Positions 7,676 to 11,947 of a DNA stretch of 18,435 nt are shown here, piece after piece. Both the position numbers and the translations under genes were made by a program. Numbering within the stretch: the first letter of the stretch is position 1; each line of letters begins with the position of its first letter. The notes under the pieces were generated by a model. It was not told the origin of the DNA. It made no database searches and saw nothing but the letters and a program-made list of their open reading frames with translations. Source of the stretch: Clostridiales bacterium (lineage in GTDB: Bacteria > Bacillota > Clostridia > Oscillospirales > Oscillospiraceae). The stretch covers positions 1 to 18,435 of the forward strand of contig JAQXNP010000144.1 in the NCBI GenBank assembly GCA_029098065.1, in the 5' to 3' direction.

Positions 7676-9973
7676 ATGAAAGCTGTTGTTCTGGCGGGGG
7701 GAGAGGGCAGCCGGCTCCGGCCTCTCACTCTGGGGCGGCCCAAGCCCATGACCCCTCTCTTCGGAAAGCCGGTGCTGGGGCATATCCTGGAGCTGCTGAA
7801 GAGGCACGGAATCACGGAGATCGCCGTCACCCTGCGGTATCTGCCCGCCGCTGTCACCGACTATTTCGGAGATGGGACGGAGTACGGGGTGCGGCTGACC
7901 TATTTTGTGGAGGAGACCCCCATGGGCACCGCAGGAGGGGTCAGGCGGTGCATGGACTTCCTGGGGGAAGAGGACTTTCTGGTGGTCAGCGGGGACGCGG
8001 TGTGCGATCTGGACCTGACCGAGCTCACCGCGCGGCATCAGAGCCGCCGGGCAGCGGTCTCCCTGGCCCTCTGCCGCCGGGAGGAGCCGCTGGAATATGG
8101 CCTGGTCCGCACTGCGGATGACGGACGGGTGCTGGGCTTTGTGGAGAAACCGGGCTGGAGCCAGGTGGACACGGAGATGGTGAATACCGGAATCTATGTT
8201 CTGTCCCGGAAGGCCATGGACGCGGTGCCGGAGGGGAGAGAGTACGACTTCGGCAAGGATCTGTTTCCCTCGCTGCTGGCCAGAGGGGAGCCCCTCTACG
8301 GCTGGGAGGTGCCGGGATACTGGCAGGACATGGGGGACTGCCGGGCCTATCTGGAGAGCGTGGAAGACGCGCTGAAGGGCCGGGTGAAGCTGTCGCCGGG
8401 GGAAAACCATCCCGCCCCGGCGGGGGTGGAGGTGAAGGATCCCTGCTGGATCGGGGCGCGGGTCTCCCTGGCCCCCGGCTGCCGGGTGGGGCCTTATGCC
8501 GCGCTGGGGGACGGCTCCACCGTGGAGACCGGGGCGGTGGTGGAGCGGTCGGTGCTGCTGGGTGCCTCCGTGGGGGAGGGGGCTGAAGTGACCGGGGCCA
8601 TCCTGTGCAGAGGCTCCGCCGTCCACCGGCGGGCCATGGTCTCGCCCGGCGCCGTGCTGGGAGAAGGGGCCGTTGTGGGCGCGGAGGCCATCGTGGCCCC
8701 CGGGGTGAAGCTGTGGCCGGGACAGCGGGTGGCCGAGGGGGCAAAGGCGACCGCCTCCCTGGTGTCCTCCGCCATGGGCGCGCCGCTGAAGTTTTCCGCC
8801 GGGGGTGCCATTTGGGGGACGGTGGGAGAAGAGCTCACCCCTGAAACGCTGATGGCGCTGGGCGCTTTGCTGGGCGAGGGGGGCCAGGTGGGCGTCGGCT
8901 GGGCCGGCGGGGCCGGGGCGGAGATGCTGGGCCGGGCCGCCGGCTGCGGCATCGCTTCTGCGGGAGGTTCCGCCCTGGTCAGCGATGCCCCGTGCCCCTC
9001 CGCCGGAGCCTGGCTGGGGCGGCACTACGCGTTGCCCTTCTCTCTTTTCATCCAACAGGATGGGGATCAGGCCGAGCTGCGGCTCAGCGGACCGGATGGC
9101 CTCCCCATTGGCAGAGACGTCCAGCGGAAGCTGGAGGGGGCTCTCCTTCGGGGGGAGGGTTCCCGGGTTCCGGCCGGCCGGGTGGGCTGCTTTGAGACGA
9201 TTACCGGGGTGCGGGCGGGCTACGCCGGGGAAGCCGCCCGGCTGGCCCGGCTTTCTCCCCTGCCCCTGCGCCCGGTGGAGGTCCTTGTCCCCCGGGGCGC
9301 CGGGGCCAATGATGTGCTGTCCGCCGCGCTCACCTCCCTGGGATGCCGGGTGGAGCGGGGAGAGGGCCGGGGCAGGCCCGCGTTCTCCGCTGACTGGGGC
9401 GGGTTCCGGCTCACCGCCTGGGACGAGGAGGGCCGGGCCATCTCGCCGGAGCGGCTGCTGGTGCTGCTGGCCCTCATTGAGTTCCAGAACGGATCAGGGA
9501 CCGCCGCCCTGCCTGCCTGGGCGCCGGTGGCCGCGGAGACGGTGGCCGGACATTTTGGCGCCAGGCTCCTCCGGCTGGGCCGGGACGGAGAGGAGGCCCG
9601 GCGGATCTGGCGGGAGCGGCCCTGGCTGTGGGACGGAATCTTTGCCGCCTGCCGGATCTGTGCCCGGATGGGGCTCACTGGGGAGTCCCTCCTGGCCCTG
9701 TCCCAATCCGCGCCCCGGTTCGCCACTGCCCGGGGAGAGGTGCCCCTCCGGTCGGGCCGCGGCCGGGTGATGGGCCGGGTTCTGAAATCCGATCCTGCCG
9801 CCCGGGCGCAGGGAGAGGGTGTCCGTACCCGGGCCGGAGCCGGGTGGGTCTATCTGGTGCCCCTCAGCGGAAGGCAGGCCCTCCGGGTGGTGGCGGAGGC
9901 CGCCAATCTGGAGACCGCCGAGGAGCTCTGCGCCCTTTTTGAGCGGCGGGTGCGGGCCCTGGATGAAAAATAA
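7676..9973 (+). CDS. Sugar-1-phosphate nucleotidylyltransferase fused to beta-helix and degenerate phosphohexomutase-like domain
   Basis: Predicted cytoplasmic NDP-sugar pyrophosphorylase of 765 aa. Residues 1-235 are a complete nucleotidyltransferase: LAGGEGSRLRPLT (6-18), RPKPM (21-25), GTAGGVR (84-90), the GD metal site (106-107), FVEKP (155-159) and a product-site NTGIYV. Residues about 255-355 are hexapeptide-like repeats of a left-handed beta helix. Residues about 370-765 align in layout with alpha-D-phosphohexomutases, as in known pyrophosphorylase/mutase fusions. However, the phosphoserine loop (expected near 455-462), the metal loop (about 571-578, reading SADWGGFR) and the terminal phosphate loop (about 730-737, reading LSGRQALR) lack the canonical residues. 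The domain is therefore probably regulatory or structural. The sugar and nucleotide (GDP-mannose or UDP/ADP-glucose) are unresolved. GC is visibly higher than in neighbours. AAAGGTGG precedes the ATG. Confidence 0.85.
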   Translation: MKAVVLAGGEGSRLRPLTLGRPKPMTPLFGKPVLGHILELLKRHGITEIAVTLRYLPAAVTDYFGDGTEYGVRLTYFVEETPMGTAGGVRRCMDFLGEEDFLVVSGDAVCDLDLTELTARHQSRRAAVSLALCRREEPLEYGLVRTADDGRVLGFVEKPGWSQVDTEMVNTGIYVLSRKAMDAVPEGREYDFGKDLFPSLLARGEPLYGWEVPGYWQDMGDCRAYLESVEDALKGRVKLSPGENHPAPAGVEVKDPCWIGARVSLAPGCRVGPYAALGDGSTVETGAVVERSVLLGASVGEGAEVTGAILCRGSAVHRRAMVSPGAVLGEGAVVGAEAIVAPGVKLWPGQRVAEGAKATASLVSSAMGAPLKFSAGGAIWGTVGEELTPETLMALGALLGEGGQVGVGWAGGAGAEMLGRAAGCGIASAGGSALVSDAPCPSAGAWLGRHYALPFSLFIQQDGDQAELRLSGPDGLPIGRDVQRKLEGALLRGEGSRVPAGRVGCFETITGVRAGYAGEAARLARLSPLPLRPVEVLVPRGAGANDVLSAALTSLGCRVERGEGRGRPAFSADWGGFRLTAWDEEGRAISPERLLVLLALIEFQNGSGTAALPAWAPVAAETVAGHFGARLLRLGRDGEEARRIWRERPWLWDGIFAACRICARMGLTGESLLALSQSAPRFATARGEVPLRSGRGRVMGRVLKSDPAARAQGEGVRTRAGAGWVYLVPLSGRQALRVVAEAANLETAEELCALFERRVRALDEK

Positions 9974-10005
9974 TGGTATACTTTTCCGGGAAACTGTGGT
10001 ATACT
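9974..10005 (+). promoter_or_regulatory. Tandem TGGTATACT elements, predicted promoter of RNase J leader
   Basis: TGGTATACT occurs at 9974-9982, directly after the upstream stop codon, and again at 9997-10005. Each is an extended -10 (TG-N-TATACT). The first falls exactly 17 bp upstream of the second, where a -35 would be. The downstream copy would start transcription near 10012. Confidence 0.55.
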
Positions 10006-10011
10006 ATCTAT

Positions 10012-10216
10012 GATTATACGTCGCGGCACAGGACTTGACTCAGCCGCGGGGAGTTTGATTGGCTTTCTGCGCCAAAAGGCGCTTTGAATCAGCAAAACAG
10101 GACAAGAAGAACAGACGTGCTCCCGCTGTCCGGCGATACAGGGCCGGACAGCGCAGGGGGGCTGGCTTTTGTACGGCTTTTTAGCCGGTTCTTGTCCTAC
10201 ATATCAATCAATATGT
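10012..10216 (+). ncRNA. Structured 5' leader RNA upstream of RNase J, family not recognised
   Basis: About 205 nt without a convincing gene but dense in secondary structure. Stem A is CGCGGC/GCCGCG (10022-10027 with 10043-10048). Stem B is GCGCC-AAAA-GGCGC (10069-10082) inside TGATT/AATCA (10056-10060 with 10087-10091). A perfect 10-bp stem AGGACAAGAA/TTCTTGTCCT (10099-10108 with 10189-10198) then closes a three-way junction. Its arms are an 11-bp perfect hairpin (10124-10134 with 10143-10153, extendable to 10119-10162) and CGGCT-TTTT-AGCCG (10174-10187). A dyad ACATAT-N6-ATATGT (10199-10216) abuts the junction before the Shine-Dalgarno. I do not recognise TPP, purine, SAM, GEMM, 6S or SRP hallmarks. 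It may be a cis-regulatory leader, possibly an autoregulatory RNase J target, or a separate small RNA. Confidence 0.55.
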
Positions 10217-10244
10217 CGAACAAAAAGGAGTGTCAGTTTCACAT

Positions 10245-11903
10245 ATGGCAGAAAAATTGAAAATTATCCCTCTGGGCGGGCTTAATGAGATCGGAAAGAA
10301 CATGACCGTCTATGAGTATGCCGGAGACATCATTGTGGTGGATTCCGGCATGGGTTTCCCCGATGACGACATGTACGGCATCGATGTTGTCATCCCCGAT
10401 TTCACTTACCTGATCAAGAACAAAAATCGGATCCGGGGGATTTTTATCACCCATGGGCATGAGGATCATATCGGCTCTCTGCCTTACCTGCTGCGGGAGA
10501 TCAATGTTCCGGTCTATGCCACCCGCATGTCCGCCGGGCTCATCAAGCTCAAACTGGAGGAGCACCATTTGCTGGGCAAGGCCAAGCTCATCACCTGTGA
10601 GCCGGGGGAGACTGTCCGGGCGGGGAAGTTTACGGTGGAGTTTATCCACGTGAACCACTCCATCGCCGACGCGGTGGCCTTTGCCATCAAATGCCCGGCA
10701 GGCACCTGCATTCATACCGGCGACTTCAAGATCGACCCCACCCCGGTGTCCGGGGGGATGATCGATCTGGCCCGGCTGGGGCAGCTGGGGAAGGAGGGCG
10801 TACTGGCTCTGCTGTGTGACTCCACCAATGTGGAACGGCCGGGCTCCACCAAGTCGGAGCGCAGCGTGGGCACCTCCTTCGACGCCCTCTTCCGGGGATG
10901 CGAGGAGCGCATCATCGTGGCTACCTTTGCCTCCAACGTGGATCGGATCCAGCAGATCATCACCGTGGCGGCCCGGTACGGGCGAAAGGTGGCCATCACC
11001 GGCCGGAGTATGGAGAACGCCATCAAGGTCTCCACGGAACTGGGCTATATGAGCATTCCCGACGGCACGCTGGTGGATATCAACCACATCAAAAGCCTGC
11101 CCAAGAACAAGGTGTGCATCGTTACCACCGGCAGTCAGGGAGAGACGATGTCGGCCATGACCCGGATGGCGTTCAACACCCACCGGCAGGTGGAGATCCA
11201 GGCGGGCGACCGGATCATCTTCTCCGCCTCGGCCATTCCCGGCAATGAGAACGCCATCGGCAACGTCATCAACGAGCTCTACCGCAAGGGGGCGGAGGTG
11301 GTCAACGAGCGGCAGGGTGAGCTCCATGTGTCGGGCCACGCCTGTCAGGAGGAACTGAAGATTATCCACGCGCTGACCCGGCCCAAATTTTTCATCCCCG
11401 TCCATGGCGAGCAGCGCCACCTGAAGGTCCATGCCAAGCTGGCCCGAGAGATGGGAATGGATCCCCGGAACATCGTCATCGCCGACATCGGCAAGGTCAT
11501 CGAGGTGTGCCCCGACTCGGTGCGGATCAACGGCACTGTGCCCGCCGGCCGCGTCTTTGTGGATGGCTACGGCGTGGGCGATGTGGGAGCGGTGGTGCTC
11601 CGGGACCGGAAGCATCTGGCTGAGGACGGCATGATCGTGGTGGTGTCCTCGGTATCCGCCGAGGACGGCGGCCTCCTGTCCGGGCCGGATATCATTACCC
11701 GGGGCTTTGTCTACGTCAAGGAGTCCGAGGGACTCATGGAGGAGCTCAAGGCGGTGGCTCTGGAGGCCATGGAGCGCAGCGTCCGCTCCAACGGCCGGGA
11801 CTGGGCGGCGGTGAAGGGAGATATGAAGAGCGATCTGTCCGGTTATCTCTTCAAAAAGACCAAGCGCAATCCCATGATCCTGCCGGTCATCATGGAAGTG
11901 TAA
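10245..11903 (+). CDS. rnj: Ribonuclease J (metallo-beta-lactamase/beta-CASP nuclease)
   Basis: RNA-processing and decay enzyme of 552 aa with 5'-3' exo- and endonuclease activity in the family. From ATG at 10245 (MAEKLKIIPLGGLNEIGKN) the metallo-beta-lactamase motif is THGHEDH (H70, H72, D74, H75), followed by VNHSIADAVA (H138 region), HTGDFKID (157-164) and the CDSTN block (191-195). The beta-CASP part shows TGSQGE and the PVHGEQRHL motif, and a C-terminal domain follows. An in-frame GTG at 10230 overlaps the AAAAAGGAG Shine-Dalgarno, so ATG is preferred, although its 14-nt spacing from GGAG is long. The gene follows a long structured leader and ends 7 nt before a strong terminator. Only one RNase J is present in the window, so J1 versus J2 is not assigned. 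Confidence 0.96.
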   Translation: MAEKLKIIPLGGLNEIGKNMTVYEYAGDIIVVDSGMGFPDDDMYGIDVVIPDFTYLIKNKNRIRGIFITHGHEDHIGSLPYLLREINVPVYATRMSAGLIKLKLEEHHLLGKAKLITCEPGETVRAGKFTVEFIHVNHSIADAVAFAIKCPAGTCIHTGDFKIDPTPVSGGMIDLARLGQLGKEGVLALLCDSTNVERPGSTKSERSVGTSFDALFRGCEERIIVATFASNVDRIQQIITVAARYGRKVAITGRSMENAIKVSTELGYMSIPDGTLVDINHIKSLPKNKVCIVTTGSQGETMSAMTRMAFNTHRQVEIQAGDRIIFSASAIPGNENAIGNVINELYRKGAEVVNERQGELHVSGHACQEELKIIHALTRPKFFIPVHGEQRHLKVHAKLAREMGMDPRNIVIADIGKVIEVCPDSVRINGTVPAGRVFVDGYGVGDVGAVVLRDRKHLAEDGMIVVVSSVSAEDGGLLSGPDIITRGFVYVKESEGLMEELKAVALEAMERSVRSNGRDWAAVKGDMKSDLSGYLFKKTKRNPMILPVIMEV

Positions 11904-11910
11904 TGGAATA

Positions 11911-11947
11911 AAAAAGAGCAGGGCCCCCAGGGGCCCTGCTCTTTTTT
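11911..11947. terminator. Bidirectional intrinsic terminator between RNase J and glgP
   Basis: GAGCAGGGCCCC (11916-11927) pairs with GGGGCCCTGCTC (11930-11941). The flanking A-run (11911-11915) and T-run (11942-11947) give a U-tract for both directions. It lies between convergent genes, 7 nt after the rnj stop and about 40 nt after glgP. Confidence 0.93.

Follow-up and report, generated by a model that had tools for sequence, protein, structure and literature searches.

The gene for RNase J, rnj, is preceded in the DNA analysed here (a stretch of 18,435 nucleotides from a Clostridiales bacterium, hereafter the window) by a structured 5′ untranslated leader, which we show to be a conserved, covarying element of the Oscillospiraceae that is tied to rnj. 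RNase J is a main RNA-decay enzyme of many Gram-positive bacteria, and the leader is most likely a cis-regulatory element dedicated to its gene. The hallmark of the leader is an apical hairpin, P2, that carries an octaloop. It is not the three-way junction put forward in a preliminary description of this DNA: such a junction is indeed predicted in the window, but it varies between lineages, and the octaloop hairpin is the defining feature.

The rnj gene occupies positions 10245..11903 of the + strand. Its product scores 615 bits against TIGR00649 (cut-off 400) and 711, below the cut-off of 820, against the RnjA model NF047419; the start codon, ATG at 10245, is backed by homologues that align from residue 1. 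The 5′ neighbour (7676-9973) is sugar nucleotidyltransferase-like, under the curated cut-off of every model listed, and the distance from its end to the rnj ATG is 271 nt. A search with residues 1-250 of RNase J found 527 relatives; the best 80 of them (82-93% identity; Pseudoflavonifractor, Flavonifractor, Lawsonibacter, Intestinimonas, Flintibacter and unnamed Oscillospiraceae, by their titles) were taken, and together with the window they give the 81 close leaders compared below.

The rnj leader is probably transcribed from its own promoter. Reading of the sequence places a likely one at 9976..10005 (+ strand), with a GTATAC -35-like element, an 18-nt spacer and an extended -10, TGGTATACT (9997-10005, including TATACT at 10000-10005); the position of this -10 suggests a transcription start near 10012. 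A comparable layout is seen in relatives, where a TGn -10 pattern matches 50 of the 81 leaders and GTATACTTT occurs in 46 of 81. This likely rnj promoter is not among the sites listed by a consensus promoter scan of the window. The sequence GGTATACTTTTCC (9975-9987), about 20 nt 5′ of the -10, is kept in the rnj leaders of many relatives; its conservation exceeds the needs of a -35 element, and it may be a regulator site or the form that the -35 takes in this group. The Shine-Dalgarno sequence AAGGAG (10225..10230, + strand) lies outside the predicted fold, from which we infer that the default state is probably "on"; AGGAG is present within the last 35 nt of all 81 leaders. Just past rnj, at 11909-11943, there is a strong terminator-like hairpin, AGAGCAGGGCCCC..GGGGCCCTGCTCT, followed by T. 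A scan of the window for tRNA and tmRNA genes gave none.

The 205-nt leader (10012-10216) has a minimum free energy of -89.4 kcal/mol, compared with -62.9 ± 4.2 for 200 dinucleotide shuffles (z -6.33), and none of the 200 shuffles folded as well; the same was true of the subregion 10056-10200 taken alone (z -5.98, 0/200). The density of pairing is therefore far beyond chance, as the preliminary description had supposed, and the fold is stable beyond what its composition accounts for, as expected of a structured cis-regulatory leader. In the predicted optimum, P0 stands outside and P1 encloses P2 and P3, all on the + strand. The helices that had been named from the letters are all there. P1 is a perfect 10-bp stem (5′ strand AGGACAAGAA at 10099..10108, 3′ strand at 10189..10198). 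Within it, P2 (10124..10153) forms 11 of 11 pairs between CGCTGTCCGGC at 10124-10134 and 10143-10153, closed by the octaloop GAUACAGG (GATACAGG in the window) at 10135..10142, and P3 (10174..10187) is a 5-bp hairpin, CGGCT/AGCCG, with a UUUU (TTTT) loop. The two further upstream stems are P0 (10062..10093), with the apical stem GCGCC/GGCGC at 10069-10073/10078-10082 and the conserved 5′ strand GGCUUU, and another that begins near 10021. The 3′ end of the fold (10199..10216) consists of a UACAU element, which begins in 10198, and the exit dyad P4 toward the Shine-Dalgarno sequence, ACATAT (10199-10204) with ATATGT (10211-10216); the 6-bp dyad is exact in its letters, weak, and no strong feature of relatives.

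Within the genus, the leader was found by a DNA search of 60 relatives. Sixteen leaders, drawn from 15 genomes of the genus, were compared side by side (L019, which is the same place as L011, was left out), and all 16 genus genomes examined have rnj. Among the 81 close leaders, the motif G(G/A)C-G[AGC]NNCAGG-G(C/T) occurs in all except L072, about 90-215 nt before the ATG. The 8-nt loop of these 80 leaders is GAGGCAGG in 57, GAUACAGG in 14 and one of six other sequences in 9; at least four pairs are contiguous with it in 72 leaders and fewer than four in the other 8. In 43 aligned sequences the loop letters G19 and C23 to G26 are invariant, and the letters of the outer P2 stem vary with pairing often kept. 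That the loop hardly changes while the letters of its stem do suggests that the loop is recognised.

P0 and P1 recur in relatives together with P2. P3 is more changeable: a hairpin at the position it has in the window is found in the window, L028, L029, L033 and L039, Lawsonibacter-type leaders have a hairpin of different sequence in its place, and minimum free energy folds of 33 leaders show none at that position in a number of them. TACAT is present in the last 120 nt of 55 of the 81 leaders. Two further ideas were rejected. The short DNA pattern GGCGRNNCAGGGCC is too loose to serve as a marker by itself, since the reversed control matches about equally often, and an upstream open reading frame inside P0 was dismissed on reading, without statistics, because its AUG and stop are not in frame across relatives. 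Leaders of the Lawsonibacter/Flintibacter type (L046, L060, L070, L075, L082 and others) carry extra 5′ elements that look alike, namely a long hairpin, UUUAAACGCC..GGCGUCUAAAUA, and AACCGUA(G)GACAGGCGGGGACGG or similar. In L085, a cobalamin riboswitch match (1965-2143, - strand; 90 bits, gathering score 31.5) lies upstream of the rnj leader on the opposite strand.

Covariation was assessed for P2, P0 and P1. For P2, 43 of 73 distinct hairpins were aligned without gaps, and the same 43 were used to build the covariance model described below. In this alignment 82.6% of the cells are paired, compared with 72.3 ± 1.1% when partners are shuffled (0/500), and with 33.7-54.7% when the strands are slid by 1-3 columns; 7 of the 10 pairs show changes on both sides. 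A second, tree-based test used a home-made null that is R-scape-like and not R-scape itself, in which per-column substitutions were replayed along a tree that FastTree built from the first 750 nt of rnj. Helix covariation of P2 reached 279 in the 80 leaders against 60 ± 20 in simulations, and 203 against 38 ± 18 in the 43 leaders that bear P0, with 0 of 400 simulations attaining the observed value in either set. The fraction of P2 paired was equalled in 5/400 simulations for all 80 leaders, in 0/400 for the 43 and in 0/400 for the other 37. Some results count against this reading of P2. When P2 was slid by one column, the corresponding numbers were 29/400, and 1/400 the opposite way, on the covariation measure and 34/400 and 44/400 on the pairing measure. 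None of the individual P2 base pairs attained E<0.5 against the tree-based null, where pairs outside the structure ranked as high.

P0 was tested in the 43 of 81 leaders with GGCTTT at least 40 nt before P2; the 38 excluded lacked such a GGCTTT or the P2 motif, or were L080. Its helix covariation was 134 against 16 ± 9, with 0/400 simulations on both measures, and 24/400 and 109/400 when the helix was slid. Two single P0 column pairs, 13-27 and 16-24, exceed all 60 nulls. P1 was tested in the 24 of these 43 leaders that have the TACAT landmark, the 19 without TACAT being dropped. Its strands pair with their own partners at -18.1 kcal/mol on average, compared with -14.4 when crossed between species (0/10,000 permutations), and the own partner is the best partner in 8 of the 24 leaders. 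Covariation is thus found at the level of the helix for P0, P1 and P2, and single pairs stand out in P0 only. The preliminary description had made conservation and covariation of the stems in related rnj leaders the touchstone of its reading, and P0, P1 and P2 are both conserved and covarying.

What follows P2 bears on how the leader could act. Protein-controlled transcription attenuators of Firmicutes consist of a hairpin and then a U-rich run, and many rnj leaders of relatives likewise have a U-rich run after the hairpin. The main rival to feedback by RNase J is attenuation, in which P2 (or P3) and the U-rich stretch would form a leaky intrinsic terminator, with P1 pairing or a factor bound to the octaloop deciding read-through. 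The run stands directly 3′ of P2 in many relatives, for example CCACCGC-UUUUCUUUUG, and at least 7 U in the 9 nt after P2 are found in 36/80 leaders, compared with 119/1600 shuffles. A scan also gave terminator-like hairpins at P3 in L033 and the window, and one in L056 that overlaps the 3′ foot of P2, not P2 itself. However, the stretch is weak in the window (10166..10173, + strand; just 5 U of 9), the U run is further downstream in Lawsonibacter-type leaders, and a terminator alone would have no need of a conserved loop, whereas the loop of the rnj leader is nearly invariant. Of the two, we regard attenuation as the less likely. The sole + strand terminator-like site between the fold and the ATG in the window is P3 with the weak tail GTTCTTGTCC, which makes the stable separate small RNA that had also been suggested for this region the less favoured reading.

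The 42-position covariance model of the P2 hairpin, R1, was used to ask where else the element occurs. Of 150 genomes of the family, 135 of which have rnj, 33 had matches to it at E up to 0.01, 39 in all. All 23 matches at E<1e-3 are just upstream of rnj and on its strand; among the 16 between 1e-3 and 1e-2, three are at rnj (G034, G153 and G164). In a sample of 295 genomes of the order, 12 had an R1 match at E up to 1e-3, all of them from the window's family, and the 4 matches that were new relative to the family sample are all upstream of rnj. In a sample of 291 genomes of the class, two had such a match, both again from the window's family, so that the order and class samples hold no R1 match at E<1e-3 outside it. 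Taken over these overlapping samples, 27 of 27 distinct matches at E<1e-3 lie just upstream of rnj, a fixed position before one gene as expected of a cis-regulatory leader. These counts measure specificity, not sensitivity: the stricter filters used on the large samples lose weak matches, and some of the searched genomes contributed sequences to R1, which makes its recall partly circular, although the locations of the matches are not. Open frames cover three matches at rnj leaders too, and therefore the open frames over five weak matches away from rnj are uninformative. A dispersed repeat, or a small RNA encoded elsewhere in the genome, is not favoured, since each matching genome has one match at E<1e-3, always at rnj.

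The preliminary description had named a riboswitch and an autoregulated RNase target among the possibilities. The confinement to rnj (27/27) is more easily reconciled with control specific to rnj, or autogenous, than with a metabolite riboswitch: strong matches at rnj alone favour control by the gene's own product or by a dedicated partner. A small-molecule riboswitch would account for a compact core, a conserved loop and a position in a 5′ leader. It is nevertheless very unlikely, because strong matches stand before one gene only, a non-metabolic one, the conserved letters are mainly in one hairpin loop, and the leader matches no known aptamer family in Rfam. Rfam 15 (4227 families), searched with the window at E up to 5 and with 12 relatives at E up to 1, has no match at the leader, which the preliminary description had likewise matched to no family, and the idea that it belongs to a known RNA family is rejected. 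A literature search, with most subscription papers outside its reach, returned no paper on an rnj leader RNA, and RNase J, rnj and ribonuclease are absent from the main text of noncoding RNA surveys of 26 and 50 genomes and of a paper on 104 motifs. We would class the rnj leader as a new RNA family within a general kind that is already known, the dedicated mRNA leader.

More distant leaders were taken from 100 of the 135 rnj-bearing family genomes, mostly ones without a strong R1 match, with 435-476 nt of upstream sequence each (104 nt in L312); L209 of this set is the same leader as L072. The loop GNNNC[AG]GG closed by at least 5 pairs is present in 36 of the 100, compared with an average of 0.8 in plain letter shuffles (at most 4 in any of 200 sets) and 0 on the antisense strand. 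With at least 4 pairs it is found in 48, compared with 2.05 in shuffles (at most 7) and 1 in antisense, and the other 52 have no such hairpin. In some of these misses the stretch enters coding sequence or rnj stands closely 3′ of another gene. The second letter of the distant octaloop, GNNNCRGG, is mostly A. Run with filters off on 40 distant leaders, R1 gave 25 matches at E up to 1, 21 of them in sense with rnj. A related P0, (G)CAUUAUGUAC-loop-GUAC or similar, is present in six. UUAUGU in the P0 5′ strand and (A/G)CAUAA before the Shine-Dalgarno sequence occur together in the distant leaders (11/22 versus 14/78, Fisher p 0.004); the possible long-range pairing of the two is a lead from a co-occurrence statistic that ignores relatedness.

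In L225, L313, L314, L315, L331, L332, L334 and others, rnj stands close behind another gene and has no long leader; the tail of the preceding gene in those genera is presumably that of RecR. A loose RecR-like tail motif is found in 24 of the 100 distant leaders, some of which still have the hairpin (for example, L207 and L287). The sequence before the aligned start in L246, L247, L250, L251, L253, L254, L266, L280, L281, L300 and L311 has the look of a coding stretch with many basic residues, so some RNase J proteins may carry a long extension at the N-terminus. At the level of order and class (54 loci), UACAUA near the Shine-Dalgarno sequence recurs. In three leaders from another family of the order (L231, L233 and L234), hairpins close AGUNGGG loops and UACAUA precedes the Shine-Dalgarno sequence; these three are possibly distant versions of the leader, a homology that is conjectured from their letters. 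Outside the order, L255, L259, L261, L264, L273, L275 and L277 have GUUCGG(A/U) or AACGGA soon after the -10. This motif is repeated in some class-level leaders and may be a different rnj leader element.

Control of an RNase gene through its own mRNA has precedents. PMC3997798 describes RNase E, PNPase and RNase III (rne, pnp, rnc) as controlling their own mRNAs, and a stem-loop in the 5′ leader of enterobacterial rne as the recognition site. Like the rne leader, for which feedback and binding are reported, the rnj leader is a structured leader in the own 5′ region of a major RNase gene. It has no homologous RNA in Rfam, and the two enzymes and their RNAs are unrelated. The pnp and rnc leaders of E. 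coli also belong to RNase genes that control the decay of their own mRNA (PMC3997798), although the enzymes differ from RNase J. There is a further difference in the RNA itself, as the rnj leader has its octaloop. We know of no conserved octaloop of this kind in the pnp or rnc leaders of E. coli.

The nearly invariant loop, the variable stem and the single target gene would also agree with binding of a protein or RNA other than RNase J that controls how rnj is translated or how stable its message is, and the octaloop might instead contact the linker before the Shine-Dalgarno sequence. For the latter, 16 leaders have a loop that ends in UACAGG, and 11 of them carry its complement, CCUGUA, within their last 70 nt; none of the 65 others does. 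However, the 11 are close relatives and may reflect one inherited event, and the loop complement is absent in the window, so that loop-linker pairing is a lead only. For another binder there is no candidate factor, and we consider this group of explanations unlikely. Finally, the strong fold near the expected 5′ end could be a general stabiliser that merely blocks 5′ exonucleases with no regulatory input. This would leave the conserved octaloop and the confinement to rnj unexplained, and it seems the least probable of all.

Autogenous feedback by RNase J on its own leader, the hypothesis of the preliminary description, is a plausible inference from the conserved element; by its conservation, the octaloop would be the site of contact. 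According to this proposal, the leader of the rnj mRNA would fold into P0 and then P1 around P2 (with P3 in this lineage), leaving the Shine-Dalgarno sequence free, and would tune RNase J synthesis to demand. RNase J itself, or a partner in RNA decay, would recognise the message by the conserved P2 octaloop. The firm 5′ stems would shield the message from 5′-3′ exonuclease attack up to the moment when the bound enzyme cuts a single-stranded part, for example the U-rich stretch or the UACAU linker. Such a cut in the leader could start the decay of RNase J's own message. We give this reading as a whole, that is, a cis-regulatory leader that tunes RNase J to demand through a recognised octaloop and rne-like self-decay, a probability of roughly 0.4.

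A conserved, rnj-specific RNA would offer a concrete way into the question of how the level of RNase J is set: the octaloop is the loop to alter, and the covariance model is a means to seek the leader elsewhere. Somewhat more tentatively, the octaloop hairpin GNNNCRGG may represent a new RNA family of the Oscillospiraceae, perhaps order-wide, through which RNase J senses its own level. If true, the RNase J family would have a feedback leader arrived at independently of that of RNase E.
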